Origin: Gemmatimonadota bacterium
GTDB taxonomy: Bacteria > JAAXHH01
Length of the DNA stretch: 62,252 bases
Reading direction: 5' to 3'
Assembly: GCA_026702745.1 (NCBI GenBank)
Contig: JAPPBT010000028.1
Span: 1-62,252, forward strand
How positions within the stretch are numbered: the first letter of the stretch is position 1; the number at the start of each line of letters is the position of its first letter. Positions 8,036-26,200 of this stretch are shown piece by piece. The notes below the pieces were generated by a model. It was not told the origin of the DNA. It did no database searches and worked only from the letters and a program-made list of their open reading frames with translations. Made by a program: the position numbers and the translations under genes.

Positions 8036-9559
8036 TCAGCTTCCCGTGGTGAACAGTTCCCGCAGCCTGCGGGCCACGAGTTCGACTTCGCCTTCCTCGA
8101 GCTGCAGCGTGCGCGGACCCGGTCCATCGTAGATGATCTTGGGGTCGCCCGCCCGCAACAGCCGGCCCACGTCTTCCCGGGACAGGGGAATCACCGCCTC
8201 GTCCCAGAGCAGTTCCACGTCGTGGTAACCGTGGGTGTTGAGCTCGTAGCGGGCTTCCAGGCCGTCGATGCCCTGCAGCTGATCCGCCAGCCAGCGGGCC
8301 TTCCCGTTCCAGGCGGCGATCTCCTCGTCCTCGTCGAGGGCCACGTACCGCTCCAGCGCGGCGACCAGGCCCACGATCTCCTCCTTGCCGACCTTCAGCC
8401 CTCTACCGAGGCCGTTATTCGGCGCGTTCTGCATCCGGGCGGCCTCGATCAGGTCGGCGCGACCCGCGAGGATCCCCGTCGAGTTCGGGCCGCGAATCCC
8501 CTTGCCGCCGCTGACCACGACCAGGTCGGCGCCGGCTTCCAGGTATTTGGTCAGGTTCTCCTTGGGCGGCAGGTTGGACGCCAGGTCGATCATCACCGGC
8601 ACGCCCCTGCGCCGGCCGATCTCGATGATCTCCAGGGGCATGAGCGTCTCGGGGTCGTGTTCCTGCCGGTGGCGCACGGGGAAGGGCGGGACGCCCCGCG
8701 CCTGATGCTCGATATAGGCCAGGCCCACGAGCAGCGCCGTCCGTTCCGTGATGGCCGCCTCGTACTCCATGCGGGTGCCGGCCTCCACCAGCTTCATGCC
8801 CGCCAGGCCGAAGACGTTGTCGTAGAAGAATCGATGAGCCGTCTGGAACAGGCATTCCACCTTCGGCCAGGTTGGATTGGGCAGGAGCTCCATCCGTTCC
8901 TCGTCTGGCCCGGTCAACACGCCCGCCGCGCCCACCAGCATCGACGCAAATGCGCCGGACGAGACCAGGGCGGCCTCCGCCCCCATGATCTCGGCGATGC
9001 GCCGTCCCGCCGCGTCGTGCAGCTCCGCCATGTCCACGAAGTAGCGGTTGGCCTCGGCCATGGCCTCCATCACCTCGGCCGGCATGCGTGAGCCACCCAT
9101 GCTCGAGAGGTGTTCGTGGGCGCCCACATGGGGTCGCACACCGAGCAACCGGGTGTAGACGTTGTCCCTCAGGTCGGCCGCAATGGCATCGGGGTCGCCG
9201 CCAGCGCCGGCCAAATCGCCGCCCGACCCACCGGCACCGCCCGGGGCCACCTGGGCATCACCCGAACCGCCCGAACCGCTGTCGCCGCCCGCACCCGCAT
9301 CTCCCGATGAGCCATCCATCTCGCCCGGACTACCGCAACCGGACGCCGCAATTCCCGCCGCACCGGCCGCGCCGGCCATGCCGGCCAGGGCGCTCACCCT
9401 GATAAACGTGCGCCGGTTCACCCGGTCCAACTTGTCCAGTGCGGCCGGCCAGTCCACCTGGTCCAGCCGGTCCAGCTGGTTAAGCCCGTCCAGCCCGCTT
9501 TCCGCTGCCGCCGATTCCGGCTCATCACCGCGCTGCTCTTTCCGGATTTCCTCGTCCAT
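8036..9559 (-). CDS. Tat-exported SelA/ammonia-lyase-like PLP enzyme, probable lipoprotein
   Basis: 507 residues. The C-terminal 390 residues form a fold-type I PLP enzyme close to the SelA/D-glucosaminate-6-phosphate ammonia-lyase group: AHEHLSSMGGSRMPAEVMEAM, ALVSSGAFASM, and the PLP lysine in SGGKGIRGPNSTGI (Lys353). Such enzymes catalyse beta-elimination or related chemistry on amino acids or sugar amino acids. The N-terminus is odd: after a run of LDxLDxVD-like repeats comes NRRTFIRVSALAGMAGAAG and then AASGC, a Tat twin-arginine signal with a lipobox, followed by a Gly/Ser-rich linker of about 60 residues. The enzyme would therefore be folded and exported to the envelope, unusual for this family. 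GGGAG precedes ATG 9559. Substrate not assignable. Confidence 0.8.
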   Translation of the reverse strand: MDEEIRKEQRGDEPESAAAESGLDGLNQLDRLDQVDWPAALDKLDRVNRRTFIRVSALAGMAGAAGAAGIAASGCGSPGEMDGSSGDAGAGGDSGSGGSGDAQVAPGGAGGSGGDLAGAGGDPDAIAADLRDNVYTRLLGVRPHVGAHEHLSSMGGSRMPAEVMEAMAEANRYFVDMAELHDAAGRRIAEIMGAEAALVSSGAFASMLVGAAGVLTGPDEERMELLPNPTWPKVECLFQTAHRFFYDNVFGLAGMKLVEAGTRMEYEAAITERTALLVGLAYIEHQARGVPPFPVRHRQEHDPETLMPLEIIEIGRRRGVPVMIDLASNLPPKENLTKYLEAGADLVVVSGGKGIRGPNSTGILAGRADLIEAARMQNAPNNGLGRGLKVGKEEIVGLVAALERYVALDEDEEIAAWNGKARWLADQLQGIDGLEARYELNTHGYHDVELLWDEAVIPLSREDVGRLLRAGDPKIIYDGPGPRTLQLEEGEVELVARRLRELFTTGS

Positions 9560-10447: not shown

Positions 10448-11002
10448 CTACTCGCCCACCGTGGCGATCACCTCGACTTCGCACCGCGCGCCGAAGGCCA
10501 GGCCGCTGCCGGCAAAGGCGCTGCGGGCCGGCTTGTCGCCGGGGAAGTACGTGACGTACACCTCGTTGAAGGCGGGCCATTCGGCGATGTCCGCCAGCAT
10601 GACCGTGGCCTTGATCACCCGGTCCATGGAGGATCCGTTGGCTTCCAGGACCGTCCTGATGTTCTCCATGGTCTGTCGGACCTCGCCCTGGATGCCCCCC
10701 GGCGCCAGGTCCGTCGTTCCGGGGATGTTTCCGATCTGGCCGGAGAGGAACAGCAGGTGCCCCACGCGCACGGCGTCCGAGAAGGGCAGGTTCATGCTCG
10801 CCGTGGTCTCCGAGGTGAGATAGACGGCCTCGGGGGTAGGCGGGGGCGCAGCAGGAGGCGCCGATGCGTCCTGTGCCGTCTCCGTGCATCCTGCGGTTGC
10901 CAGCAAGAGCACAACAGGCGTCAGAAATAGCGCAATGGGTGCCCACACAGGTCCGGAGTTCCTCCGCAACGGCGGAACGGCAACGCGTTGTCTTCCAGTC
11001 AT
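10448..11002 (-). CDS. RidA/YjgF-family lipoprotein
   Basis: 184 residues from ATG 11002 (CAGGAG about seven bases upstream); a longer reading from 11068 is less likely. A signal peptide ends in ATAGC (Cys39), so this is a predicted lipoprotein with a Pro/Ala linker. The rest is a complete RidA domain: DAVRVGHLLFLSGQIG, LEANGSSMDRVIKATVMLADI, and PARSAFAG with the Arg that binds the substrate carboxylate, then EVEVIA. RidA hydrolyses reactive enamines and imines made by PLP enzymes and is normally cytosolic, so an envelope form is notable beside the exported PLP enzyme 900 bases downstream. Confidence 0.85.
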   Translation of the reverse strand: MTGRQRVAVPPLRRNSGPVWAPIALFLTPVVLLLATAGCTETAQDASAPPAAPPPTPEAVYLTSETTASMNLPFSDAVRVGHLLFLSGQIGNIPGTTDLAPGGIQGEVRQTMENIRTVLEANGSSMDRVIKATVMLADIAEWPAFNEVYVTYFPGDKPARSAFAGSGLAFGARCEVEVIATVGE

Positions 11003-11111
11003 ATTTTGCTCCTGGTGTCGGCCGCAGCGATTCTTGCGCGTCGACGTGATCGCACGACGTGATTGCAATGGTGAAATATAAGCATGTAAACCTGAAACTA
11101 ACGAAATAGGG

Positions 11112-11124
11112 TCGACCCGGTCAA
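11112..11124. promoter_or_regulatory. Palindrome, TTGACCCGGTCAA type (one mismatch)
   Basis: TCGACCCGGTCAA, followed by GCGTACA. It lies about 110 bases upstream of the RidA lipoprotein and 340 upstream of the LRR lipoprotein. The same motif with the same right flank occurs at 13860 and, on the other strand, at 45968. Confidence 0.4.
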
Positions 11125-11289
11125 GCGTACAAGATATCTCATATATGAACTACAGACTATGTTAATAATCCGAAAAGTATGTACTTTCCACCGTTGCAGA
11201 CTTTTATTGGAACGCGGCTTTCCTGGTTTCCGTACTTTCGCTGGCGGGACGCGGCGGCGACAACGGCGTAGAAGCCGATCCGCAAGCCA

Positions 11290-11388
11290 TGTACGACTCG
11301 GGAGACGAAAGGGCAAGCTTCCAGTTACACTATTCAAGATGGCAACGGCAGGATGCATTCGGCTTGACGCGAATGATTGAATCAGTGA
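11290..11388 (+). pseudogene. Decayed fragment of the RWQRQDEFGW C-terminal domain
   Basis: Bases here translate in part as LHYSRWQRQDAFGLTR, matching FHHSRWQRQDEFGWTT of the lipoprotein at 31627-32373, and end in a form of its last codons (AATCAGTGA against AATCACTAA). The middle of the domain is missing. It sits just upstream of, and in frame with, the LRR lipoprotein but lies before that gene's own signal peptide. Confidence 0.7.
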
Positions 11389-11465
11389 GTGCGAAGGAAC
11401 CGCAAGATCAGGGTCCATCATTACCACAAAGATCATTACGGAGTTCATCGCGAGGATTTACCATC

Positions 11466-13121
11466 ATGAAACTAAAAACTGTGGCGTTTCTTGTGTGTGT
11501 TTCGTGGTTTACTATTATCGCCTGTGGCAACGACAGTTCCACCAATCCGCAACAGCCTGAACCACCGCCGCCCCCTCCCGTACCCACCAGGATCGTGATC
11601 AACCCCGCGTCGATAACGTTCGATGCAATCGGACAAACCATTCAACTGTCTGCCAGTGTCTATGACCAGTACGGCGCGGTCATGAGCAGCGCAGTCGTGT
11701 CTTGGACCAGCGACGATGACGCGGTAGCGACCGTCAACACGGGCGGTGACGTGACGGCAGTCAACAATGGCAACACCGTGATTTCGGCCAGGTCGGGCGG
11801 TATCTCCGCCAGCGTAAACGCGGCAGTCATGCAGTCGGCCTACAGTATCGCCATTGAACCTCAGATGGCGACGCTCCGGGAATTCGGCGAGGCGGTGCAG
11901 ATGTCGGCTACAGTGTTGGACCGGAATGAGCACCCCGTAGAAGGTGTTGCCGTCTCCTGGACTAGTAGCGACACGGGAGTAGCGTCGGTCGACGATGCAG
12001 GACTGGTGACGGCGCTGAACGACGGCAACACCCGGATCATCGCGTCCTACAGCGGCATTTCCGGTACCGCCCAAGTTAACGTAATGATCGACCCGATGAC
12101 GGACAGAGGCGCACTGATCAAGCTGTACCACGCCCTGCAAGGACCGGGCTGGGCGCAAGACACCAACTGGTTGTCGGACAAGCCCCTGGTCGAATGGTAT
12201 GGCGTCGATACCGACGGGAACGGCAACGTCACATGGCTGGATCTTGATGCCAACGACATCAGCGGTGTTATTCCGTCGGCAATGGGTAACCTGACCAGCC
12301 TCGAATTCCTGAATCTTAGCAATAACAAGTTCAGCCGATTGTATGGCAACATTCCGCCCGAGTTGGGAAACCTGACCAACCTGCAGGAGCTGAATCTCAG
12401 CAATACCGCCGTGTGGGGCACTCTTCCTCCGGAATTAGGAAATCTGACCGACCTGCGAGTGCTGGATCTCACCTCCACCGAGGTGACAGGCAGCATCCCT
12501 CCGGAACTGGGAAACCTTTCCAGTCTGCAGTTGCTGTATATTCAGCAAAACGCGTTGTCGTGCAACATCCCACCGGAGCTGGGTAACCTGTCCAACCTGG
12601 AAGAGTTCAATTTCTACTCAATACCTGAACTCCCCGCGTCCAACTCGCAGGAATCGAGTAGTGGCAGCACCCAGGAGTCCTGCCGTATTCCACCGGAACT
12701 GGGCAACCTCACCAACCTGTTCGAGCTGGATCTTGGCGGCAAAGGATTCACGGGGAGCATTCCGCCGGAGTTGGGGAAACTCAGCAACCTGTATTTGTTG
12801 AAACTCAGGTTTAACGCGTTAGATGGCAGCATCCCGCCGGATCTGGCAAATCTGACCAACCTGGTACAGTTGGACCTTTCCTACAACAATCTCATGGGGA
12901 ACATCCCACCGGAGTTGGGAAACCTCTCAGATCTCACGCATCTGGAGTTGAGCTATAACGAAGATCTGACAGGGCCGCTGCCCGACACGTTCACCAGCCT
13001 CAAAAACCTCCGGTCGCTGGGCCTGGCCGATACCGGCTTATGCGCTCCTTCGGATGATGCGTTTCAGGCGTGGTTGCTGGGCATCGAGACTGAGGGTGTG
13101 GTGACTTGCGAAGAGGATTAA
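11466..13121 (+). CDS. Surface-type lipoprotein with two Ig-like (BIG_2) domains and plant-type LRRs
   Basis: 551 residues from ATG 11466; upstream in-frame codons belong to a decayed fragment. Signal peptide ends at Cys20 (TIIAC) and continues GNDSSTNP, a tail shared with other surface lipoproteins here. Two BIG_2-like domains follow (about 45-120 and 125-205, each with ATV or ASV before a Gly-LVTA turn). An N-cap module follows (DRGALIKLYHALQGPGW, TNWLSDKPLVEWYGV), then about ten 24-residue LRRs of the IPPELGNLTNL type, and a C-cap ending TGLCAPSDDAFQAWL...VVTC. LRR lipoproteins of this type are presumed adhesins or binding proteins on the cell surface; the ligand is unknown. Confidence 0.88.
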   Translation: MKLKTVAFLVCVSWFTIIACGNDSSTNPQQPEPPPPPPVPTRIVINPASITFDAIGQTIQLSASVYDQYGAVMSSAVVSWTSDDDAVATVNTGGDVTAVNNGNTVISARSGGISASVNAAVMQSAYSIAIEPQMATLREFGEAVQMSATVLDRNEHPVEGVAVSWTSSDTGVASVDDAGLVTALNDGNTRIIASYSGISGTAQVNVMIDPMTDRGALIKLYHALQGPGWAQDTNWLSDKPLVEWYGVDTDGNGNVTWLDLDANDISGVIPSAMGNLTSLEFLNLSNNKFSRLYGNIPPELGNLTNLQELNLSNTAVWGTLPPELGNLTDLRVLDLTSTEVTGSIPPELGNLSSLQLLYIQQNALSCNIPPELGNLSNLEEFNFYSIPELPASNSQESSSGSTQESCRIPPELGNLTNLFELDLGGKGFTGSIPPELGKLSNLYLLKLRFNALDGSIPPDLANLTNLVQLDLSYNNLMGNIPPELGNLSDLTHLELSYNEDLTGPLPDTFTSLKNLRSLGLADTGLCAPSDDAFQAWLLGIETEGVVTCEED

Positions 13122-13304
13122 CCGGGCGCGTTGTGGGAGGCGGCTGCACGACAGAAACTCCTTCAAGGACAGTAAAACACTCTTGATATTTGGTTGGTCC
13201 TGCCAGGTCTCAAACATGGTGTTCGCAGGCGCGCACCGTCCAGTTCCACCCAGATATAAACCGTTTGGGGATTATATTCGAAAGTGCCAATAGTGCTCAT
13301 ACTT

Positions 13305-13391
13305 CTAGCAGAACCGCTTCACTACTGTTCTTACCATGATCCATGCGATGATTAGAAAGAACAGTTCAACAATCGGGATGGCAAAAAACAT
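13305..13391 (-). CDS. 28-residue hydrophobic microprotein, copy A
   Basis: ATG at 13391 to TAG at 13305-13307. The peptide begins MFFAIPIVELFFLIIAWIM and ends in a basic tail (VRTVVKRFC): one membrane span with positive charges at the C-terminus. A second copy at 32473-32559 has the same length. Of the nine codons that differ, three are silent (including the stop) and six give conservative changes (V/L, I/M, A/T, V/I), and similarity stops at the stop codon. That pattern argues for selection on the peptide. AAGG precedes the ATG. It points toward the end of the upstream LRR gene. Candidate small membrane toxin, regulator or assembly factor; no family recognised. Confidence 0.6.
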   Translation of the reverse strand: MFFAIPIVELFFLIIAWIMVRTVVKRFC

Positions 13392-13859
13392 TAGGGATCA
13401 ACCTTTCAGTCTGATGTATAACTGCCCGCCGAAGGAATGTCGTCGCATTTATCGGCCTTTCGTGACAGATCCTGATCCATGCGATTTTGATTCACGCAGT
13501 TATTCTGATATTTGTAACAGTTGCTCGCCGGACGCGTAGATTCTGTTCCGCCTCCGAGATGGTACAAGGCAACCGAATAGATTCAAACTGAGTACCAGAA
13601 CGGTGTTGGCATGGCCGAACCACAATCGCCCTGACCTCCGTTTTCTTTCCCTTTCCTCCTGACGTGATCCCTGACCGCGAAGCATGTATCACATGCACTC
13701 CATGACTGCTTACAGTGCAATGGTTTCCACATCCAAGTCAGCGGAAAAGACGGCACGTTGTTTTCTAAACATTTCCAGCTCCAGCGTCTGCGGTAACTGT
13801 TTCTGAGCGGCAACGTGATTCTATACATTAATGATATTCCTGAAGTTAACTATTTGAAG

Positions 13860-13872
13860 TTGACCCGGTCAA
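13860..13872. promoter_or_regulatory. Perfect palindrome TTGACC-C-GGTCAA
   Basis: A perfect 6-base inverted repeat around a central C, followed by GTGTACA, about 67 bases before the ATG of the kinase-like/barrel gene. The related copies at 11112 and 45968 also lie upstream of genes, the latter before lptD. A transcription-factor operator is the simplest guess. Confidence 0.45.
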
Positions 13873-13938
13873 GTGTACATGTTACTTCTTGTGATGAGAG
13901 CGCACATGTGATCTCTTGTATTGACCAGGAGACAAATC

Positions 13939-16617
13939 ATGCTACGAAAGGCGTACTCGATCAGATCGTGCACGATCCGATCCCGCCGCCGATGGTCTAC
14001 CGTGTTGCTCGTTGCCGCGATACTTGCCGCCTCACTATCCCTTGCAGGCGCCGATTCGGCAGCGGCGCAGGCCGGCCAGCGCATCTTCCGCTCGGTCCCG
14101 GAGCAAGGCGATACGACGCACGTGGCCGTACCCGGCGGACGGTTCGAGAAGGGCGGTTTCGGCCGGTGGTTCTACGGCAGCGACTACCGCCAGCTCTGGA
14201 CGACGCCGCTCGAACTGCCGGTCCTCGATCTGGATGCCGTGGGCGGCGGGCTGTCGCCCATGCGCCCGGGCGGAGCCGGCCAGTCCATTTCGCTCCACTT
14301 CATGGGCGAGGACGGCCGCCGCTACACGGTGCGCTCCATCGACAAGGACCCGTCCAAGCGTTTGTTGGATGAGCTTAAGGACACGGTCGTCGAGGACGTG
14401 ATCCAGGACCTTGTGAGCGCCCACCTGCCGGCGGCGGGCCTGGTGGTGGATGCGCTCATGGAAGCAACGGGCGTCCTGCATGCGCCGCACCGGCTCGTGG
14501 TGATCCCCGACGATCCCAGGCTGGAGTCGTTCAGGGAAGAGTATGCCGGGCTGATCGGCACCCTGCAGGAACATCCGTCCGAAGCCCCCGGCAACGAGCC
14601 GGGGTTTGCCGGATCCCGCAGGGTGAGCGGCTCGGAGCGGTTGTACGAAGGTCTTGAAGAGTCTCCCTGCGAACGCGTGGACGCCCGCGCCTATCTTAAG
14701 GCGCGACTCATCGATTTTCTCATCGGCGATTCGGACCGGCATCGCGGCCAGTGGCGCTGGGCCCAATTTCCGGCCGGCGACTGCTACACGTGGCTGCCGG
14801 TCCCCGAAGACCGGGACAAGGCCTTCATCGACCTGGACGGTCAGTTCATGAAATTGGTGCGCCGGATCGAGCCCAAGTTCGTCCGCTTCCAGGAGCAATA
14901 TCCGAACCACCGGGGTCTCTCCCGCACGGGCTGGGAACTGGATCGGAGGTTGCTGGCCGAACTGGAATGGAACGCGTGGGAGACCGTGGTCGCCACGGTA
15001 CAGTCCGAATTGCCGGACCCGGTGATCGACGAAGCCGTGAGGCGCCTGCCGGATCCGTTCTACACGCAGGTGGGGGACTTCCTGGCCCGGACGCTGAAGG
15101 TGCGCCGGGACACACTTGGCGAATTTGCGGCGCGGTACTACGGATTCATCAGCAACGAGGTCGAAATCCGGGCGACGGACGAGGACGAATACCTCGAACT
15201 GGAACACCAGGCGGACGGCGCGCTGGAGGTGCGCATCAGCCTGGCCGGGACGTCGGAAATCCCGTATTTCCGCCGTACCCTCTACCCCCACGAGACCGAG
15301 GAAGTGCGGATCTACCTGCACGGCGGGGACGATCAGACCAACGTCGTCGGAGACCGGGCCAGGATCAAGGTGCACGTGGACGGCGGCGGGGGCGACGATG
15401 CCTTCGCGAACAACTCCCGGGCGGGACGCCGGACGACGCGGTTCTACGACGCGCGCGGGCGGAATCGCTTCGAAGGCGGCCGGGCGCACGTCAACGAGCG
15501 ACGTTTCGTGCGACCGAGGAACGAGAGCGCGATCTCGCAGGACATCTATACCCTCGACTGGGGCCGCGTATCGGGTATTCGCCCGGTGGTCTACTACAAA
15601 TCCGACTTCGGCTTCTACGCCGGGCTTCAGTACGCCCGGTTGAGTTATGGCTACCGGAAAGCGCCGTATGCCGCACGGTACGCCATCGACGTCGGCGTCG
15701 CCTCGCGGGGTGGAGCGAAGCCCTTCGTCACCTATTCCGGCCGGTTCCGGCATATGTTTCGGAGCCTGGACGGACAGCTGGAGATGGGGTACTCCGGCAT
15801 CAACATGGTACGCTTCAACGGCTTCGGCAACGACTACAGTCTCACGAAGGACGAGCCGTTCTACGAGCTGGAACAAGCGCAGTTCCTTCTCGCACCCGCC
15901 CTGTCCTTCACGGGTTCCGGTGACGCGCACGGCAAGTGGAACCTGGCGGGCGGCCCCGTCGCCAAGATCACCAACACCTCATTAGACGAGAACGAAGGGA
16001 AGTTTATCGCATCCTACGAAACGCCGCTGTACGGGACGGGATCCTTCGGGCAGGCCGGGGTGCGCGGGGAAGTCGTCTTCGACACCCGCAACCATCCGGC
16101 TCACGCCCTGCGGGGCGTGCGGATAAGGCTGGCCGGTGAACTCTATCCAGCGCTGTGGGACGTCGAATCGATCTTCGGCAATGTCGCGGGGGAGGCGTCC
16201 ACCTACCTCTCGGCGAACATCCCCGCCTCCCCCACCCTCGCCCTGCGCGTGGGCGGCAAAACCGTCCTCGGGGAGTATCCCTTCCACGAAGCCGCTGCGA
16301 TCGGCGGTTCCGAAAACCTGCGGGGATTCCGCAAGTTCCGTTTCGCGGGGGATTCCGCGGTCTACGGCAACGGCGAGCTCCGTTTCCGGCTGACCCCGAT
16401 CAAGTTCCTGGTTCCCGGTGACCTCGGTGCGTTCGGCGCCGTCGACGTGGGGCGTGTATTCTACGGGAACGACCCGGGCAATGCCGACAACTGGCATATC
16501 GGCCGGGGCGGCGGGCTCTGGGTCTCCTTCACCGAGCGGCGGGCGACGCTGAGCCTGGCGATGATGGACAGCAAGGACAAAACCGAGCTGTACCTGTACT
16601 TCGGGTTCATGTTCTAG
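13939..16617 (+). CDS. Kinase-like domain fused to an Omp85/BamA-type outer-membrane barrel
   Basis: 892 residues from ATG 13939 (AGGAGA upstream). Signal peptide to about residue 45 (ADSAAAQAG). Residues about 95-330 resemble the protein-kinase-like fold of HipA/FAM20 type: RRYTVRSIDKDPS as the nucleotide-binding strand, FLIGDSDRHRGQW as catalytic loop (Asp264, Asp266, His268), and AFIDLDGQF as metal-binding DFG equivalent (Asp298, Asp300). The C-terminal 350 residues are a surface-antigen barrel (AAAIGGSENLRGFRKFRFAGDSAVYGNGELRFRL, ending in Phe). In Bacteroidota a calcineurin-like phosphoesterase precedes the same two regions in one polypeptide; here that phosphoesterase is the convergent next gene. 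Kinase activity is inferred from motifs only. Confidence 0.75.
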   Translation: MLRKAYSIRSCTIRSRRRWSTVLLVAAILAASLSLAGADSAAAQAGQRIFRSVPEQGDTTHVAVPGGRFEKGGFGRWFYGSDYRQLWTTPLELPVLDLDAVGGGLSPMRPGGAGQSISLHFMGEDGRRYTVRSIDKDPSKRLLDELKDTVVEDVIQDLVSAHLPAAGLVVDALMEATGVLHAPHRLVVIPDDPRLESFREEYAGLIGTLQEHPSEAPGNEPGFAGSRRVSGSERLYEGLEESPCERVDARAYLKARLIDFLIGDSDRHRGQWRWAQFPAGDCYTWLPVPEDRDKAFIDLDGQFMKLVRRIEPKFVRFQEQYPNHRGLSRTGWELDRRLLAELEWNAWETVVATVQSELPDPVIDEAVRRLPDPFYTQVGDFLARTLKVRRDTLGEFAARYYGFISNEVEIRATDEDEYLELEHQADGALEVRISLAGTSEIPYFRRTLYPHETEEVRIYLHGGDDQTNVVGDRARIKVHVDGGGGDDAFANNSRAGRRTTRFYDARGRNRFEGGRAHVNERRFVRPRNESAISQDIYTLDWGRVSGIRPVVYYKSDFGFYAGLQYARLSYGYRKAPYAARYAIDVGVASRGGAKPFVTYSGRFRHMFRSLDGQLEMGYSGINMVRFNGFGNDYSLTKDEPFYELEQAQFLLAPALSFTGSGDAHGKWNLAGGPVAKITNTSLDENEGKFIASYETPLYGTGSFGQAGVRGEVVFDTRNHPAHALRGVRIRLAGELYPALWDVESIFGNVAGEASTYLSANIPASPTLALRVGGKTVLGEYPFHEAAAIGGSENLRGFRKFRFAGDSAVYGNGELRFRLTPIKFLVPGDLGAFGAVDVGRVFYGNDPGNADNWHIGRGGGLWVSFTERRATLSLAMMDSKDKTELYLYFGFMF

Positions 16618-16640
16618 GGAGGGCCGGTCGGCTCGTCCCG

Positions 16641-17825
16641 CTACGGAATGCGCATCTGGAAGACGGGCGTTTCCTGCCCCGTTCTCACGACGCGCACGAC
16701 CGGCACGGCGGGATCTCCGTCTCCCTCTCCCTCGAGGCTGACGAAGTCGAGCACGACGAATCCCGGGACGGCATGGGCGAAGATCGTTTCGGGCAGGTCG
16801 GTCACGCGCGTCACCTTGCCGGTGGAACCCGCCCCGCTCACGATGTGCATCCGGGCGACCTCGTCGCCTTCGAAGAGCTGCAGGCTGTGATCATGTCCCG
16901 CGGCATAGACGAGGGACCTGTGCCTTGCGAGTGCGATCTCGACTTTCTCCGCGAAGTCCACATATTTCGGGTGGTGCAGCGTGAGTTCGGATCTCGGCTG
17001 TAGCAGTAGATGATACAGGTTGACCAGAATATCGATGAGCATCCCCTGCCCCAGGTCGGCACGGTCGCCGGCCGACCGAAGCGGATAGTGACTCGCCACG
17101 ATCACGTAGTGGTTTTCCAGTGAGGCGAAGGTGTCGTCGATCCGCTGTCCGAATTCCCCATCAGCGCACCCACTTCTGTCGTAGACCTCGGAGAACCAGG
17201 GCAGCCAATCGATGGCGACGACCGCGATCCCCCGTTCCATCTGCTCCCCCGGCCGAAGCAGTTCGCGGACGGCGGGACCCGGACATCCGTCGCGGGGCAG
17301 GAAGTCCACGTCGCCCCCGGGCCATTCCAGTACGAACTCCTGCTGCGCGATGACGCGCTCACCTGTCCAGTCTCGCGGCGAGGAGCCCCAATCGTGGTTG
17401 CCCGGCACGAAGACCCGCAACGCAGAGGTGGACTCGAGCTGCTGGCGCAAAATGGACTCGCCCCAGGCGCGGTTATCCTCCTCCAGTCCCGACGGGTAGA
17501 GATTGTCACCCAGTAACAACACGGCGGCGCGATCCTGCGGAACGGCCCAGCGCCCGATGGCTGCCAGGGTGGGATCGTCCCGGACCGGCTCGCCGGTGTC
17601 TCCGGTCAGGATGATGCGATAGGCGACCCGGGCGGTGTCGGCTGGGCCGGTGACGCCGATCGTGTCCGCCGGAGCGTTCCACCGGATGAACGGGTCTCCA
17701 TCCGCGTCGTAGTTCTCGCCCCGAAGTCGTCCGGCATGGCAACCCGCCAGGACTACGGCCAGCGCCAGCAACAGCGCGGTCACCGGCCGGAAAACCCGCC
17801 GGAATGCCACCATACCCATATACAT
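16641..17825 (-). CDS. Calcineurin-like metallophosphoesterase lipoprotein
   Basis: 394 residues if started at ATG 17825; ATGs at 17819 and 17813 are equally possible. Lipobox VVLAGC makes it a predicted lipoprotein. All metallophosphoesterase motifs are present in order: ILTGDTGE, LLGDNLYPSG, VPGNHDWG, ASHYPL and AAGHDHSLQ, giving the two-metal site. Such enzymes hydrolyse phosphomonoesters or diesters. Last gene of the minus-strand run that begins at 21092, 45 bases after its neighbour, and convergent with the kinase-like/barrel gene 23 bases away. Fused homologues of these two in other bacteria imply joint function. Confidence 0.88.
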   Translation of the reverse strand: MYMGMVAFRRVFRPVTALLLALAVVLAGCHAGRLRGENYDADGDPFIRWNAPADTIGVTGPADTARVAYRIILTGDTGEPVRDDPTLAAIGRWAVPQDRAAVLLLGDNLYPSGLEEDNRAWGESILRQQLESTSALRVFVPGNHDWGSSPRDWTGERVIAQQEFVLEWPGGDVDFLPRDGCPGPAVRELLRPGEQMERGIAVVAIDWLPWFSEVYDRSGCADGEFGQRIDDTFASLENHYVIVASHYPLRSAGDRADLGQGMLIDILVNLYHLLLQPRSELTLHHPKYVDFAEKVEIALARHRSLVYAAGHDHSLQLFEGDEVARMHIVSGAGSTGKVTRVTDLPETIFAHAVPGFVVLDFVSLEGEGDGDPAVPVVRVVRTGQETPVFQMRIP

Positions 17826-17870
17826 TTCCGCTCGTTGTGCCTTCCGCCGGGCGTTATTCGATCCTCGCAA

Positions 17871-18965
17871 TTACTGTCCCTTCGCAACGGGGTAGAAACT
17901 CAGGGTCGCGCGCTTGCCCGCCCCTTCGTCCGCTATGACCAGGGTATTGTCGGCAGCAAAGGTGATGCCCTCGGCCTGCCGATGCAAGCTGGCCGTCAGT
18001 CTGCGTACGGAGAGGACCGTTCCACCGGGGGTGATCTCGGCAACGGCGCGTTGGCGGGCCGCCACGATAAACAAATTGCCCGATGCCGGATGCCGTTCGA
18101 CACCGGAGGGTTGGAATGTGTCGCGATCGATTGGGCGGGCGAACGCGGCAGCCTCGATGAGGATGGAACCGCCTTCGACAAGCCGCCTGGAATCGAGCGA
18201 CCAGCGGTAGATCGCTATCTGGTCACCCTGGCGGGGGTTTCTGGGGTTCTTGCTGAGGAGCAGCAGCATGCGCCGATCCGGATCGTAGGCCAGTCCCTCT
18301 ATTTCATGAAAACGTCCGACGCCGGTCTCATACCGGTTGTAGGGAACGGCCGCCCCGTTATCGCCCTCGCCGAACTCGTACAGCCGGCCCGTGCTCGTGA
18401 CGAGGAACAGCCGGTCCTCGGCGGCGGCAATGCCTTCGAAGTCATCGGCGACCCGGCCCCTGGGACCTCCGAGTTCAAAGTCTTTCACGATCGAGCCATC
18501 GCGATAATCGATTTCTACTACCGTGCCTCTTTCGTCATCGTGGGCGAGAAGCCGGTCCCCTGCGAGCATGGCCAGGCCGGAGATTTCCCGCAACCGCCTC
18601 GGCAGCCTCAATTGCCGGTCCGGCTCTTCGAAATCGAAACGCCCGAGGAGAAGAGGATCCCCCGAGGCCGCCGCAGTGGAGCCAGCAATAGAGGTCTGGT
18701 TGACCGTGGCTGCAGCCATTGCGTTCACGGTGGAATCCATCCCCGCGCCCGCCATCGGGGGGGCTACGCCTTCCGCCGCAGGAGCACCGCCGGCTATAGC
18801 AGGAGCGCCATCATCCTGCATCGCAGACGCGCCCACGCCAGGTTCCGCCGACGCGCCCACGTCCGGTTCGCCCGGCGCGTCCTCCCCCACGAACATGGCC
18901 ACCACGAAGAAGACCACGCTCAAGCCCAGAAATGCCGCCAGGAGCTTATTGCCCGGTGCCCTCAT
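17871..18965 (-). CDS. Membrane-tethered SdiA-regulated/esterase-like phytase-type beta-propeller
   Basis: 364 residues from ATG 18965 (GAGGAGAGG upstream). An uncleaved-looking N-terminal anchor (APGNKLLAAFLGLSVVFFVVAMFVGE) is followed by about 90 residues of Ala/Gly/Pro-rich linker with GASA-type repeats, then a propeller domain: LREISGLAMLAGDRLLAHDDERGTVVEID, DFEGIAAAEDRLFLVTSTGRLYEF, and PSGVERHPASGNLFIV. This order of ISGL, DFEGIA and SGV motifs matches the SdiA-regulated (YjiK-like) and esterase-like phytase families. The anchor closely resembles that of the solute-binding protein two genes upstream. Probably periplasmic face of the inner membrane. Catalytic activity not assured. Confidence 0.78.
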   Translation of the reverse strand: MRAPGNKLLAAFLGLSVVFFVVAMFVGEDAPGEPDVGASAEPGVGASAMQDDGAPAIAGGAPAAEGVAPPMAGAGMDSTVNAMAAATVNQTSIAGSTAAASGDPLLLGRFDFEEPDRQLRLPRRLREISGLAMLAGDRLLAHDDERGTVVEIDYRDGSIVKDFELGGPRGRVADDFEGIAAAEDRLFLVTSTGRLYEFGEGDNGAAVPYNRYETGVGRFHEIEGLAYDPDRRMLLLLSKNPRNPRQGDQIAIYRWSLDSRRLVEGGSILIEAAAFARPIDRDTFQPSGVERHPASGNLFIVAARQRAVAEITPGGTVLSVRRLTASLHRQAEGITFAADNTLVIADEGAGKRATLSFYPVAKGQ

Positions 18966-18978
18966 AGACCACCTCTCC

Positions 18979-19902
18979 TCAAGATTGCGGCCGTTCCTCC
19001 AGCTCCACCTTTGCGGCATAACCTTCGGTGATCTTTTCCAGAGCCGCGGTGAAGGTCGCCGGGTCCGACTTCTTCTTCATCCGGACGTCGAACTCGACGA
19101 TCGAAGCGTCGTCCCCCTCTTCCACGACCCCCGCGAACTGCCAGCGCGCGGCATAGGTCGCCAGCAGCGCTTCGGCAGCTTGCTGCGCCGCTTCGGAGCG
19201 CGACGTGTGTACCCTGAGCCTGGTGGTGAAAGGCTTGGGCTTTTTACCCTCCCCGGGATCGCTCCCGTCAGGCCCAGGATGCCCGCCGGGCGGATGCACC
19301 AGCCTGAGCCCGGACAGTACCGCGGGCTCCGCGCCCCAGTTCATGCGCCAGACGACGAGCACGACGGCATTGAAAGCCACCGAGGCCAGGATCGCCACCG
19401 AACCGTACTGGATCCCGGCGGCCAGTCCGATGCCGATGACAATGAACATATATATGGCGTCCATGGTTTCGTTCAGCGACGTGCGAAAGCGTACCGCGGC
19501 GACGATACCCGCGATACTGAAGGCGAGGGCGATGCTGTCCTTCACCAGAAACACGACGAGGGCGATTGCGATGGGGACGACGAGGAGGGTCTGGGCAAAG
19601 GACGGGTCGTATTTCTTGCGGGGCCGCGTCCAGCGATAGACCCAGACCACGGGCAGGGCGAAGAGAAAGGAAAACAGCAACGACATGGTTACCGGAACGA
19701 ACACCTGGGACAGGCCCGCATCGGCCTCGAACTGTTCGAAATCCAGGGTCGGAAGGGAGCTGTCTTCGATCCGTTCGGCCACCTGAAATTCGAGGAAGAC
19801 CCCCGGAAGCAACTCCCACAGGGCCGCGAAAAAAAGGAACGAGGCGATATAATAGACCACGAGCCGGACAACGATATGGTCGAGCAGGGCCGATCCTTTC
19901 AT
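18979..19902 (-). CDS. DUF4956-family membrane protein
   Basis: 307 residues. At least four hydrophobic spans occur in the first 200 residues, with the family hallmark SIALAFSIAGIVAAVRFRTSLNETMDAIYMF followed by VIGIGLAAGIQYG. The C-terminal 100 residues are soluble (RLRVHTSRSEAAQQAAEALL). DUF4956 proteins are often found beside VTC-type polyphosphate polymerases and CotH-like kinases; neither is present here. An internal Pro/Gly-rich loop (HPPGGHPGPDGSDPGEGKK) separates the two halves. It lies 13 bases before the tethered propeller gene and 47 after the solute-binding gene, so one operon is likely. Confidence 0.82.
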   Translation of the reverse strand: MKGSALLDHIVVRLVVYYIASFLFFAALWELLPGVFLEFQVAERIEDSSLPTLDFEQFEADAGLSQVFVPVTMSLLFSFLFALPVVWVYRWTRPRKKYDPSFAQTLLVVPIAIALVVFLVKDSIALAFSIAGIVAAVRFRTSLNETMDAIYMFIVIGIGLAAGIQYGSVAILASVAFNAVVLVVWRMNWGAEPAVLSGLRLVHPPGGHPGPDGSDPGEGKKPKPFTTRLRVHTSRSEAAQQAAEALLATYAARWQFAGVVEEGDDASIVEFDVRMKKKSDPATFTAALEKITEGYAAKVELEERPQS

Positions 19903-19949
19903 AGGTCACCTCGGAATCGTGCGATGCGAGGGCGGTAAATCCACACGCC

Positions 19950-21092
19950 CTACCACGTGAAGCTGAATGATCCGGTCGTGCGCGGATCGGGTCCGGTCCT
20001 GCCGGCGTCCGGGGTCTTGTACCGGCCGGGCACGGCAGACCAGTCTTCGTAGACGTTGCCGTCCAGGAAATAACGCCGCGTCATACCGGGTCCCATGGCC
20101 GGCCTGTCCGAAAGGAACAGTTCATAGAAATGGGATGGCGGGTCCGGACCGGTCCGATCTCGATAAGGGACGTATTCGCCGAGGCCGTCGCCGTCGACGT
20201 CCGTTCGGATCCAGTCGAGCTCGAGCAGACCGTGAATGGTCCGGTCGGCCATCATGGCGCGCATCTCGGCGTCGAACCGGGTGATGATCGAATCGGCGCC
20301 AGGAAGCGTGCGATTTACGGCGAGGTGAAGCGAACGGGTGAGCAGCGGCGTCGAACCGAATGCCAGGCGCGTCCGTGCTTCGCCTCCGTGATTGGCGATA
20401 AGGTACTGGACGACCAGGTCGTCCAACAGCGCGTAGTCCACCTCGCCGTCGAGGAGTCTTGCGACCCCGTCCTCGTCGCTGTTCGAACGGACGAATTCCG
20501 GCCCGTCCTCAGTCTCTGCCACACTCGCGTACGCGAGCCCGGCGAACAGGGCGACCTTCGTTCCGGCGAGGCCGGCCAGGGAGGCAGCAGATACGTCGCT
20601 GCCTGCCCGCCCCACGAGGATCAGCCGGTTCTCCAGATACGGCCGCGAGTAAATCATCGCGCCGTCCCGTGCTTCATTCTGCCAGACTGCCGCACTTCCA
20701 TCGAACGCCCCGGTCAGCAACACGGACGACAACCTCTCCTCGTCCATGACAACCGTATCGGCGCCGATCCCCATGCGTTCCAGGGCCGTTTCGACAAGAT
20801 CGAGGGCGAACCGCGGTTTTCCCGGCGCGCCGGCGAAAGGCGACCACGTTGTCGTTACCAGTCGCAGCGGCCGGCCTGACAGTTCGGGATGGCCGTCGAA
20901 TCGCGCACCGGACGCGGCCTCCGGACCATTCGTGGCGGCGTCCTGCTCGTACCGGCCTCCTGATGGATCGCCGGGCTGCACTTCGCTTTCGGAATCGAAC
21001 AGCGCGAACTCCTCTACGATCACCGCCACCAAGAAAAACACGAAGCTGAAGATAAGAAACCATACCAGCAGTTTGTTACCCGGTCTGTACAT
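19950..21092 (-). CDS. Membrane-tethered solute-binding (SBP family 3-like) protein
   Basis: 380 residues from ATG 21092; a longer reading up to 21662 crosses the promoter of the divergent gene and is rejected. N-terminal anchor YRPGNKLLVWFLIFSFVFFLVAVIVEE, then a periplasmic binding fold: RPLRLVTTTWSPFAG, ALDLVETALERMGI, GAFDGSAAVWQNEARDGAMIYSRPYLENRLILV, VDYALLDDLVVQYL and NRTLPGADSIITRFD are typical of amino-acid binding proteins. No ABC permease or ATPase is nearby, so a sensory or scavenging role with the downstream DUF4956 and propeller proteins is more likely than transport. A C-terminal DVDGDGLGEY looks like a calcium-binding loop. First gene of the minus-strand operon. Confidence 0.75.
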   Translation of the reverse strand: MYRPGNKLLVWFLIFSFVFFLVAVIVEEFALFDSESEVQPGDPSGGRYEQDAATNGPEAASGARFDGHPELSGRPLRLVTTTWSPFAGAPGKPRFALDLVETALERMGIGADTVVMDEERLSSVLLTGAFDGSAAVWQNEARDGAMIYSRPYLENRLILVGRAGSDVSAASLAGLAGTKVALFAGLAYASVAETEDGPEFVRSNSDEDGVARLLDGEVDYALLDDLVVQYLIANHGGEARTRLAFGSTPLLTRSLHLAVNRTLPGADSIITRFDAEMRAMMADRTIHGLLELDWIRTDVDGDGLGEYVPYRDRTGPDPPSHFYELFLSDRPAMGPGMTRRYFLDGNVYEDWSAVPGRYKTPDAGRTGPDPRTTGSFSFTW

Positions 21093-21402
21093 GATCCTTG
21101 CCTTACCCCGGTCTCGAACAAAGCCGTACCCGCATGACGATTCACACGAGGGCCCGTCGGCTCGGATTGCACTGTTAGAGAAGCAAGTATCCGCTGTAGA
21201 TGGTTGCCAGGATTTAAGGGAAGTCCAAACGTAATTAAAACGACTGTGTCGTACTTCGCATGCGAAAAACGAACGAAAGACAAAAAAACTGAAACTGTGT
21301 ATCAACTGAACGGTTATATTACTAGTACATTCAACATGTTTTATTAATGACCCTCCTCCCGGAGCACACGAGCGGAGCACACGATTCAGGGAGTTTCCCG
21401 GT
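21093..21402. promoter_or_regulatory. Divergent promoter region
   Basis: About 310 bases, notably AT-rich at 21230-21350, between the tethered solute-binding gene and the LRR lipoprotein. It should hold promoters for both. No palindrome, repeat or RNA gene was recognised. Confidence 0.5.
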
Positions 21403-23169
21403 TTGCTTACGTCCCGCTTGATCTTGTTCGTTATCGCGCTATTCGTCGTTTCGGCAGCACTGGCCGCTTGTGGCGGCGGGGGTTCTTCGCAACCCGGACC
21501 GACGTCGCCCGTTACGCCGACACCGCCTCCAACGCCGACACCACCTCCAACGCCCACGCCGCCGCCCACGCCGCAACCCGTCCCGACCAGTATCCGGATC
21601 ACACCATCTTCCCTGACGCTTACCTCGCTGGGCCAGACCGCGCAACTGACCGCCACGGTCAACGATCAGAACGGCAGTCCGATTACCGGGGCATCGGTGG
21701 CTTGGTCATCGAGCAACACCGGCGTAGCCACCGTGAGTACCGGAGGCCTGGTTACGGCGGTGAGCAACGGAACGGCCCGCATCACCGCGCGATCGGGCAG
21801 CGTCTCGAACGGGATCACGGTGACCGTATCGGCGCCCGTTCCCAACCGCGCCCCGGAGCCGGTGGATGAAATAGCGCCTCAGGCACTGGTCGAGAACGGT
21901 CCTCCCGCGGAGCTGGACGTATCCTCCGCATTCCGCGACCCGGACGACGACGAACTGACCTATACCGCGGAAACCAGCGACGACCAGGTTGCCACGGCGG
22001 AAGCGTCCGGCGCCACCGTCACCATCCGTCCTGTCGCGGCCGGCGAAGCGACCGTGACGGTCACGGCGACCGATCCGGACAGCCTGAGCGCCACGCAGGC
22101 CATATCCGTCACCGTCACAGCCGATACGGTGATGAATACCCGGCCGCAGGCGGTGGGTATGCTCGCGGACCTGAGACTGGTTGAAGGAGGTCCGGCCGAG
22201 GAACTGAACGTGTCCGACGCGTTTCTCGATGCCGAAGGCGATAGCCTGGTATATACCGCTGTGTCGAGCGACGAACAGGTCGCCACGGCCGAAGCGATGG
22301 AGGCGCGGATCACGATCCATCCGGTATCGCCGGGCAAAACGACGGTCTCAGTCCGTGCGACCGACCCGGAAGGCCTGAGCGCCACGCAGAGCTTCACCGT
22401 GACGACGGTGGTTTCGAGTCCTGATCGGAATGCGCTCGTCGCGTTCTACGAAATGACGGGCGGACCGGACTGGTCGGACCGGACGAACTGGCTGTCCAAC
22501 GCCCCGCTCGACGACTGGCATGGCGTCACGACCGACGCCGACGGCATGGTCACCCGGCTGGAGCTGAACGGGAAAAACCTTCGAGGACCACTACCGGATG
22601 CACTTGGGCAACTCGGTAACCTCGCGGTGCTGGACCTCGGCGGCAATCATCTGTCAGGCGGAATTCCTTCCTCGTTCGGCCAACTGAGGTTGCTTGAAGC
22701 GTTGAACCTCGAAGGGAACCAGTTGGCGGGGGGCCTGCCCCCGGAAATCCAGCACCTGGAGAATCTCGAAACGCTCCATCTCGCCGGAAACCAACTGTCC
22801 GGCGAGATTCCCTCTGAACTCGAGCATCTTGATGCGCTCGAAGTGCTCGATTTCGGGGACAACGCGTTTACGGGTCCCATCCTCCCCGAAATCGGAACAC
22901 TGGCGGCCCTTGTCCACCTGGATCTCTCGGTCAATCGGCTCACGGGTCCGCTGCCGCCGGAAATCGGGCGGCTCGGCAGTCTGACTACGCTTGACGTGGC
23001 CTCGAACCCGGAACTTTCCGGCCCTCTGCCCCTGGCGCTTTCCAGGCTCGACCTGGAAAGCCTGCACGTTAACGGAACTCAACTTTGCGTGCCGTTATCC
23101 GAGGAATTCCTGGAATGGCTGAGTGAAATCCCGGATCTCAGCGACATACCAGTCTGCCCGGACGAGTAG
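21403..23169 (+). CDS. Surface-type lipoprotein with Ig-like domains and LRRs
   Basis: 588 residues from a TTG at 21403, with CAGGGAG about ten bases upstream. Lipobox ALAAC (Cys23), then a Gly/Ser and Thr/Pro-rich stalk (PTPPPTPTPPPTPTPPPTPQ). One BIG_2 domain (about 60-145), two cadherin-like Ig domains of the form VDEIAPQALVENGPPAELDVSSAFRDPDDDELTY (about 150-235 and 240-325), the N-cap DRNALVAFYEMTGGPDW, then about eight LRRs (GGIPSSFGQLRLLEAL type) and a C-cap TQLCVPLSEEFLEWL...VC. Predicted to be exposed at the cell surface. It lies 60 bases before the CARDB protein gene in the same direction, so co-expression is likely. Confidence 0.85.
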   Translation: MLTSRLILFVIALFVVSAALAACGGGGSSQPGPTSPVTPTPPPTPTPPPTPTPPPTPQPVPTSIRITPSSLTLTSLGQTAQLTATVNDQNGSPITGASVAWSSSNTGVATVSTGGLVTAVSNGTARITARSGSVSNGITVTVSAPVPNRAPEPVDEIAPQALVENGPPAELDVSSAFRDPDDDELTYTAETSDDQVATAEASGATVTIRPVAAGEATVTVTATDPDSLSATQAISVTVTADTVMNTRPQAVGMLADLRLVEGGPAEELNVSDAFLDAEGDSLVYTAVSSDEQVATAEAMEARITIHPVSPGKTTVSVRATDPEGLSATQSFTVTTVVSSPDRNALVAFYEMTGGPDWSDRTNWLSNAPLDDWHGVTTDADGMVTRLELNGKNLRGPLPDALGQLGNLAVLDLGGNHLSGGIPSSFGQLRLLEALNLEGNQLAGGLPPEIQHLENLETLHLAGNQLSGEIPSELEHLDALEVLDFGDNAFTGPILPEIGTLAALVHLDLSVNRLTGPLPPEIGRLGSLTTLDVASNPELSGPLPLALSRLDLESLHVNGTQLCVPLSEEFLEWLSEIPDLSDIPVCPDE

Positions 23170-23232
23170 TCCGGATCGACAAACCCGTAAACCGCCGCGG
23201 CGCCTGCCGTCGCTTCAAGGTGTGGCTATCTG

Positions 23233-26200
23233 ATGTATCGTACCGCTAAAGTAGGATTTCCGGTTATCCTTTGCCTGGTGGCCGTTACGCTTTTCACCTG
23301 CGGGAAAGACAGTCCTACCAACTCCTCCCGGCAGGAAGCGGCCGCACCAAAGACCGCGGCAAGGCCGCAGGCCGCGACCACCGGTACGCAGGCCGCGACC
23401 ACCAGTCCACAGGCCACAGCAGCCACGCCACAGACTACAGCAACTCCGCCGCCTGCTGGTCCGCAGCCATCAGACGCCGCGGACACGACCGCCACGGCGA
23501 GCAGATCGGAAAACCTCGAAGACGGGCAGCAACCAACCGGCCAGGCAGGCCAGCCCGTCGTGACCGGCCAGCCCGTCGTGACCGGCCAGGCAGGGCAGTC
23601 CACCGGGCAGGCAACCTCGCCGGATTACGTGATCGAATCGGTAGAAGTCAGCGAAACGAGCCTGAGCGCCGGACAGCGCTTTTCCATGACCGCGACGGTC
23701 AAGAACCAGGGCGCGGACTACCCCGGTTTCGCGCTGGCAACGCTGCGGTTCTACCGTTCCTCCGACGCCACGATCTCCACCGCTGACACGGAACTCGGTG
23801 ATCGGCCCATCCTCCCGCTCGACGCGGACGAGACCCGGGAGTGGTCCCTGCCCGTCCTCAACGCACCGTCGGCCGCCGGCACGTATTACTACGGCGCCTG
23901 TGTCGATGCTCTGCCGGAAGAATCCGACCAGCAGAACAACTGCTCGGTCGCGGTGGCGGTGAGCGTCGGCGGGCCCGACCTGGTGGTCGATTCCCTGGCG
24001 GTGAGCGAAACGAGCCTGAGCGCCGGGCAGCGTTTCACCATGACCGCCAGGGTGCGGAACCAGGGCGCCGGCGCCACGGTAGACCTGACGACGCTGCGCT
24101 TCTACCAGTCCTCCGACGCCACGATCTCCACCGCCGATACGGAACTCGGCACGCGGCCGATACTCACACTGGACGCGGACGAGACCCAGGCGTGGTCCCT
24201 GCCCGCCCTGAACGCTCCGTCAACGGCCGGCACCTACTACTACGGCGCCTGCGTAGATCCGCTGGCGGCAGAAACCGATCAGCAGAACAACTGCTCGGCA
24301 GCATTGACGCTGACCGTCGGTGGACCCGACCTGGTCGTCGATTCTCTGGCGGTGAGCGAGACCAACCTGAGCGCCGGGCAGCGCTTCTCCATGACCGCCA
24401 GGGTCCGGAACCAGGGCGCCGGCGGATCCATATCCCTGACGACGGTGCGCTTCTACCGGTCCACAGACGCGACGATCTCCACCGCCGACACGGAGCTCGA
24501 TTCCCGGCCCATACTACCCCTCGATCCAGCCGAGACCCGGGAATGGTTCCTGCCCCTGCTCTACGCGCCGTCAGCGGCCGGCACGTACTACTACGGCGCC
24601 TGCGTAGATCCCCTGACGGAGGAAACCGACCAGCAGAACAACTGCTCGGCGGCGGTGACCATATCCCTGAGAACGGCGGATCTCATCGTCGAGCGGCCTA
24701 CGGTCAGCGACGTCAGCTCCACCGCGGGCGGCAGGTTCTCTTTGAGCGCCACGGTGCGCAACCAGGGCGGCGGTGACGCCGTCGCGTGGACGACCCTTCG
24801 TTTCTACCAGTCCGGCGACGCCACGATTTCAAGCGCCGATACGGAGGTCGGCACGTGGTCCGTATCTCCCCTGGAGGCGTCCGGATCACAGGAACGGACG
24901 CTCAGGTTCCTCGAACTGCCTACGGACGGCGGTACCTATTTCTACGGGGCCTGCGTGGATCCCCTGCCCGGTGAGGCCGACACGGGCAACAACTGTTCGG
25001 GCGGGGTGACCATTACCGTCAGCAGTCCCGACCTGGTCGTCGATGCCCCGACCGTCAGCGAGCCAAACCCGGCGCCCGGCGAGCAATTCGACCTCAGCGC
25101 CACCGTCCGGAACCAGGGCGGCGGCGACGCGGCTTCATCGACGACGCTCCGCTACTACCGCTCGAGCGACGCCACGATCACCGCCAGTGACACCGAAGTG
25201 GGAACCGACTTCGTAATCAGGCTGGACGCGGCCGCAACCGCCGAGGAGTCGATCTCGTTGACCGCGCCCGATGCGGCGGGAACCTACTACTACGGCGCAT
25301 GCGTGGACGCGCTGGACAACGAGACGGGCACGGGGAACAACTGCTCCGTGGGCGTCGCGGTGACCGTGGGGCAGACCGCCAACCAGCCCCCGGTGGCCCG
25401 GGGCATGATTCCCGACCAGGAAGTCGACGGCGGCGAGTCGGTCACGGTGGACGTGTCCTCGTACTTCGAGGATCCCGACGGCGATACGCTGACCTACCAG
25501 GCCCTGACGTCAAACGCCGCGGTCGCGACCGCATTCATTCCGGGTAGCGTGGTGACGATCAGGGGCTTGTCGGCCGGCAGCGCGACGATCACCATCACGG
25601 CCAGCGACGGCAGTCTGACCGCCGGGCAACCGATACGCGTCACCGTAAGACGTTCCGTCGTCCCGCTTCCCGATCTCATCGTTGAATCGCCGTCGGTCAG
25701 CGACGGCAGTCCGGAACCCGGCGAGCGATTCACGTTCAGGGCGACGGTTCGCAACCGGGGTGACGGCGACGCTTCATCCTCGACCACGCTGCGCTACTAC
25801 CGCTCCGGGGACGCCACGATCTCGGCCGCGGATACGGAAGTCGGCACGGACAGCGTGCGCTCCCTGGACTCGTCCGAGACCAGCGACGAATCGATCGCGC
25901 TGAATGCGCCTTCAGACGAGGGCACGTACTACTACGGCGCCTGCGTGGAAGCGCTGTCCGACGAATCCGACACGCAGAACAACTGCTCCGTCGCCGTGAC
26001 GGTGACGGTGGGCCAGCCCGTCAACCAGGCGCCCGTCGCACAGGGTACGATCCCGGCACAGAACGTGGACGTGGGCGAATCAGTACGGATCGCCGTAACC
26101 ACCTATTTCAGCGATCCCGACGGCGACCGGTTGACGTACTCGGCCGCCTCGTCCGACGCGGCGGTCGCCACGGCGGCCACTTCGGGCAGTTTGGTGACGG

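Follow-up and report, generated by a model that had tools for sequence, protein, structure and literature searches.

A conserved envelope gene module with a kinase-like domain on an Omp85-type barrel and a possible connection to polyphosphate

We describe here a five-gene envelope cluster in a Gemmatimonadota bacterium (NCBI GenBank assembly GCA_026702745.1), situated within positions 1 to 62,252 of contig JAPPBT010000028.1, a stretch that we refer to as the window. Gene A, encoding a kinase-like domain carried on an outer membrane barrel, faces four genes, B to E, on the opposite strand. Genes assigned by sequence to the kinase-like/Omp85, metallophosphoesterase (B), propeller (C) and DUF4956 (D) families recur together in several phyla, with the polyphosphate kinase PPK1 as a recurrent neighbor, and we propose tentatively that they form an envelope module linked to polyphosphate. 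The genes, with the basis for each assignment, are:

13939..16617, plus strand: A, signal peptide, kinase-like domain, linker and barrel (Pfam, AlphaFold, Foldseek, residue conservation)
16641..17825, minus strand: B, calcineurin-like metallophosphoesterase lipoprotein with a VVLAGC lipobox (Pfam, conserved metal ligands)
17871..18965, minus strand: C, single N-terminal hydrophobic anchor and an SdiA-regulated/phytase-like beta-propeller (Pfam)
18979..19902, minus strand: D, DUF4956 inner-membrane protein with a C-terminal beta-alpha-beta-beta-alpha-beta (ferredoxin-like) domain (Pfam)
19950..21092, minus strand: E, N-terminal anchor and a family-3 solute-binding domain (Pfam, six-ortholog profile)

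The five open reading frames are present at approximately these positions. The minus-strand genes are closely packed, with gaps of 47 bp (E-D), 13 bp (D-C) and 45 bp (C-B), and A and B are convergent, with 23 bp separating their stops. B starts at the ATG at 17825, although an upstream TTG at 17870 is a possible alternative, and C starts at the ATG at 18965. A sequence-only reading of the window had described four minus-strand genes of these families with 13-47 base gaps, convergent with a gene carrying a kinase-like domain on an Omp85-type barrel; the open reading frames, gaps, Pfam matches, barrel model and conserved motifs of A all agree with this. An Rfam scan of window positions 11000-23500 found no RNA. 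The signal peptide and Omp85 barrel of A predict, by the Omp85 rule, that its kinase-like domain is at the periplasmic face; B is a predicted lipoprotein, C and E would each be tethered by one N-terminal segment, and D is probably in the inner membrane with its C-terminal alpha/beta domain in the cytosol. The earlier placement of these activities on both sides of the envelope is likely, but only in the sense of inner membrane, periplasm and outer membrane. C and E open with closely similar anchors (PGNKLL..FL..S.VFF.VA), and E and C cross-match in the genus search.

The kinase-like part of A spans approximately residues 88-405, and is followed by a beta-rich linker (407-520) and the Omp85 barrel (543-889). 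The barrel matches PF01103 in the Pfam scan (8.6e-8), and the AlphaFold model of A (predicted local distance difference test 87, predicted template modelling score 0.81) has 16 barrel strands across 543-889. A therefore shares the PF01103-type 16-strand C-terminal barrel of the Omp85 superfamily members BamA, TamA and Sam50 (Foldseek matches of 1e-10 to 1e-7), but differs from the POTRA-barrel proteins BamA and TamA in that the Pfam scan gives no POTRA match and the N-terminal domain is instead kinase-like. Barrels dominate the matches in the PDB fold search of A, and a viral fold library, used to look past them, returned weak kinase matches only. The kinase-like part itself has no Pfam match, even at E<=5. 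Among 73 homologs of A, residues R132, K136, D259, D264, R267, W274, P289, D291, R292, D293 and A295 are invariant, D266 is present in 72, and position 271 is Gln in 69 and Asn in the other four, such that a D-x-D-R-H-x-x-Q loop, a D-R-D motif and Lys136 are conserved in 69-73 of the 73. By analogy with protein kinases, these may constitute a catalytic set of a Lys, a loop Asp with its Asn/Gln, and a metal-binding Asp, with putative roles for each. HipA-type kinases bind metal with an Asp-x4-Asn loop, and the Asn/Gln exchange at position 271 is therefore in keeping with a kinase loop. Among solved structures, the HipA-like kinase CtkA is the best candidate relative, at an E value of 0.24 in an alignment that spans the loop, which is suggestive of kinase kinship, though short of proof. 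The D-x-D-R-H-x-x-(Q/N) loop, a distal Asp motif and the invariant Lys are common to A, CtkA and the CotH kinases, but we did not find significant sequence homology to either, and because the HHalign comparison with the CotH profile was non-significant (probability 0.95%), we dropped the idea that A is a CotH.

B matches PF00149 (Metallophos) above the cut-off (2.2e-7), its profile matches acid phosphatase type 5 in the PDB at 8.5e-5, and its metal ligands (GD.., GDN, GNHD, H and GHxH) are conserved in 32-34 of 36 sequences. It thus has the complete metal-ligand set of the purple acid phosphatases and calcineurin-like phosphoesterases, but unlike purple acid phosphatase it is a lipoprotein, and its counterpart in Bacteroidota is fused to the kinase-barrel. 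C matches PF13449 and PF06977 at 5e-8 and 8e-8, and D matches PF16316 (DUF4956) at 3.3e-13, all above cut-off; neither the propeller profile nor the DUF4956 profile has a match in the PDB. The fold candidates for DUF4956, small ferredoxin-like and microcompartment folds with E > 3e-3, were set aside unused. E scores 25.5 bits against PF00497 (SBP_bac_3), slightly below the 26.4 cut-off, but a profile of six orthologs matches solved amino-acid-binding proteins at 7e-8, and we assign it to the family-3 binding proteins on that basis. Such proteins are known with ABC transporters, whereas no permease or ATPase was found within the five-gene block or among the flanking open reading frames scanned, as the sequence-only reading had it.

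We have surveyed the distribution of the module outward from A. A model of the kinase-like domain first found relatives in four unrelated genomes, and 79 loci were recovered from 84,980 scanned genomes, as the top-scoring matches to the window sequence rather than an even sampling; together with the first four, and with near-duplicates merged, these make 74 distinct loci. As deposited, with labels that include those of metagenome-assembled genomes, they belong to Gemmatimonadota, Latescibacterota, KSB1, Poribacteria, Acidobacteria, Aminicenantes, Calditrichaceae, Ignavibacteria, Bacteroidota and some Proteobacteria, and clear homologs are present in the cultured genera Pedobacter, Rufibacter, Larkinella and Pontibacter. 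Within approximately 8 kb of the kinase-barrel gene, the neighbors are a propeller (32 loci), a phosphoesterase (31), DUF4956 (26), an HD/PycTM protein (22) and PPK1 (18). In 15 cases a DUF4956 gene adjoins the kinase-barrel gene in the same orientation, mostly with gaps of 13-76 bp, and the propeller adjoins DUF4956 in 13 cases and the fused gene in 12; the spacing between same-strand genes in these loci typically ranges from a few to a few tens of bases. In most Bacteroidota loci the phosphoesterase is fused to the kinase-like barrel, as in L084 (Bacteroidota-like), where a single 1238-aa chain contains phosphoesterase, kinase-like domain and barrel, with a convergent SdiA-regulated lipoprotein adjoining. 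The suggestion that the genes belong to one functional system is supported by this recurrence of four of the five families across phyla and by the fused chains, and pairs of the families do co-occur in other genomes, the outcome whose absence had been named beforehand as counting against it. A solute-binding protein is present in just two of the 74 loci, and E is a lineage-specific addition; it is the only candidate ligand sensor and, being confined to the lineage of the window, cannot define the core function, and the phospho-ligand sensing or scavenging first proposed is not established, the linkages pointing instead to polyphosphate. In the open-licence literature we found no description of the kinase-barrel family, of its phosphoesterase fusion, or of a pairing of SdiA-regulated proteins with polyphosphate kinase. 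The kinase-barrel gene is tandemly duplicated at L096, L097, L098, L099, L100 and L106, and a gene for a SixA-like phosphohistidine phosphatase, named by eye, recurs close to the module at L120, L122, L123, L130, L132 and L159.

The presence of PPK1 at 18 of 74 loci compares with an expectation of approximately 0.2, calculated from one copy per 4.2 Mb (PPK1 is single copy in 15 of 16 genomes). The Poisson probability of at least 17 is about 1e-27 with loci treated as independent, and because PPK1 linkage must change 13 times over the tree, the association is not confined to one clade. Six control genes were found in no locus other than their own source. PPK1 is part of single-operon layouts at L102, L106 and L110, in the one-strand order DUF4956-phosphoesterase-kinase/barrel-PPK1 at L102 and phosphoesterase-kinase/barrel-DUF4956-PPK1 at L110. 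At L082 there is a 4-bp overlap between the DUF4956 and kinase-barrel genes, with PPK1 coming after them, and at L083 a PPK2 gene is convergent toward the A homolog. At several Gemmatimonadota-labelled loci (L110:4864-8019, L131:6266-9541 and L082:4074-7409), the PPK1 beside the kinase-barrel has an N-terminal extension of about 400 aa; that of L110 matches CYTH (PF01928) at 2.6e-4, the stretch after this match resembles Nudix by eye, and PPK1 of this type is possibly a CYTH-PPK1 fusion.

DUF4956 has a connection to polyphosphate synthesis of its own. Of 41 DUF4956 genes outside the genus in 308 genomes, 30 have a VTC polymerase gene within 10 kb, 18 have CotH and 33 have one or the other, and DUF4956 is near 30 of the 32 VTC genes, a near-obligate linkage. 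A gene set of CotH, polyphosphate polymerase, DUF4956 and DUF4832 is described beside pelDEADAFG in streptococci, clostridia and bifidobacteria (PMC7112168), and a Clostridium perfringens locus contains VTC and CotH genes (PMC2879425). In two Larkinella loci (L160 and L163, 12005-14902), a set of HD/PycTM, propeller and fused kinase genes has CotH/VTC/DUF4956 downstream, approximately 1.5 kb from the fused kinase gene. The CotH/VTC/DUF4956 set and the module described here have in common DUF4956 and an extracytoplasmic kinase-like protein, and a polyphosphate synthase is linked to the module in 18 of the 74 loci; but the kinase-like part of the module is unrelated by test and is borne by an Omp85 barrel, the linked synthase in the module's relatives is PPK1, which in the window genome is on another contig, and the phosphoesterase and propeller are extra. 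The module may therefore parallel that set, itself uncharacterized, in logic while using other parts.

Eight of the 12 genus genomes retain the arrangement A> <B<C<D<E, complete or as far as their contigs reach; in one of these (G004) A is on a separate contig because the contig ends inside B. D and E are absent from the other four, of which two (G007 and G011) have broken pieces of A beside the same upstream flank genes (G007:C140:1040979 and G011:C232:6351-7527), so that the block was evidently once present there and is now being lost as a unit. This ordered recurrence, with the recurrence of pairs across phyla, argues that the block reflects more than chance. The window genome encodes PPK1 and PPK2 on contigs C20 and C6, both unlinked to the block; in three genomes of the genus PPK2 lies approximately 12 kb from A, and in a fourth it is at this distance from the A remnant. 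VTC (PF09359) has no match across the 12 genus genomes, nor does CotH (PF08757) in the genus. The upstream flank of the block that is conserved across the genus includes a SelA-like gene (L-seryl-tRNA selenium transferase fold; window 8036-9559). Secreted proteins with Ig-like domains or leucine-rich repeats also flank the block (window 11289-13121, 21403-23169, 33471-40898 and 51414-54539), one of 2475 aa, and more distantly there are an LptD-like outer-membrane protein (46048-48609) and a hybrid histidine kinase with a C-terminal Trans_reg_C domain (54850-57219).

The DUF4956-VTC linkage and the presence of PPK1 beside the kinase-barrel point to polyphosphate, and the conserved Lys/Asp/DRD residues in A and metal ligands in B add support. 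We favor a model in which a conserved envelope module connects the outer membrane with polyphosphate or with a phosphoryl polymer derived from it, with a probability of roughly 45%; the transport, phosphoryl donor and substrate steps are those that we infer. A cytoplasmic polyphosphate synthase (PPK1 in the relatives, VTC-type elsewhere) would cooperate with DUF4956, which from the inner membrane, with its cytosolic ferredoxin-like domain, could deliver, gate or signal polyphosphate to the periplasm. There the tethered propeller may bind the product or hand it on, and the barrel-borne kinase-like domain would add phosphoryl groups either to a substrate in the envelope or to the polymer itself, which the lipoprotein phosphoesterase would trim back or reverse. 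In the window lineage the tethered amino-acid-type binding protein E would be an added component, probably an input sensor, and the polyphosphate kinases of the window genome are encoded elsewhere. The eukaryotic VTC complex couples polyphosphate synthesis to membrane translocation (PMC9911596), which offers an analogy for this idea, although there is no sequence tie to the window genes.

Several observations weigh against this model. The kinase-like domain has no known relative of statistical significance by Pfam, PDB or HHalign against CotH, and in 69 of 73 homologs the usual metal-binding Asn is replaced by Gln. The DUF4956 fold search returned nothing below an E value of 1e-3, and we know of no transport activity for this family. 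DUF4956 is absent from most Bacteroidota loci, where the core is thus propeller, fused kinase and HD/PycTM. PPK1 was not seen within 8 kb at most kinase-barrel loci, some of which are incomplete; it is not in the window block, and the genus copies are on other contigs. Moreover, PPK1 linkage concerns neighborhood and does not prove shared chemistry.

There are several other models to consider. The block could be an ordinary phosphate-scavenging island, in which the periplasmic or outer-membrane phosphatase and phytase-like propeller free phosphate, the barrel provides porin-like entry and PPK1 acts in storage, and the resemblance of B to purple acid phosphatases, the match of C to Phytase-like PF13449 and the PPK1 linkage are compatible with this; we consider it unlikely, as A has an Omp85-type barrel rather than a porin, a complete catalytic set is conserved in its kinase-like domain, and the DUF4956-VTC/CotH linkage is left unexplained. 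An envelope-protein phosphorylation switch would account for the kinase-like and phosphatase parts in one fused chain, for the conserved catalytic residues, and for the proximity of CotH, an extracytoplasmic kinase, to DUF4956 in unrelated genomes: the kinase-like domain would phosphorylate proteins or glycans of the outer membrane or periplasm, in the manner of CotH in spores, the phosphoesterase would undo this, E and C would provide inputs, and polyphosphate would be the donor or be connected indirectly. This too we judge improbable, given the non-significant HHalign comparison with CotH, and we know of no substrate for it. A role in outer-membrane biogenesis or in lipid or lipopolysaccharide trafficking, with the kinase-like domain a non-catalytic scaffold replacing POTRA, finds some support in the barrel matches to Sam50, TamA and BamA and in the PAP2 phosphatases close to some A homologs, but the invariant Lys/Asp/DRD in 73 diverse sequences argue for chemistry and the PPK1 and DUF4956 linkage is unexplained, making it very unlikely. 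An anti-phage or nucleotide-signaling island, considered because adjoining HD/PycTM proteins in 22 loci, Ignavibacteria and Bacteroidota among them, match PycTM models, is highly improbable and was dropped, as PADLOC matched none of the five window proteins and long-term vertical conservation over phyla with PPK1/SixA-like linkage suits a housekeeping role better. The HD-PycTM membrane protein recurs both by the module and by PPK1 (L084:11648-12835, L083:11720-12919 and 20 other loci), and its label may not signify defence.

The polyphosphate model raises a broader, rather more speculative idea. ATP is absent outside the cytoplasm, and it is conceivable, though we think it quite unlikely, that exported polyphosphate is the phosphoryl donor for two extracytoplasmic kinase families with no homology detectable between their sequences, CotH and the putative kinase of the Omp85 proteins, with DUF4956 exporting the polymer from VTC- or PPK1-type synthases and a linked phosphoesterase reversing envelope phosphorylation. 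The findings define an envelope module that is widespread and built around a domain with no Pfam model, and give DUF4956 a proposed role as a partner of polyphosphate synthases. They also make two questions testable, namely where kinases and phosphatases outside the cytoplasm obtain phosphoryl groups, and whether bacteria have a dedicated route that moves polyphosphate into the envelope. The module suggests that polyphosphate is used at the cell surface in a manner not described before.

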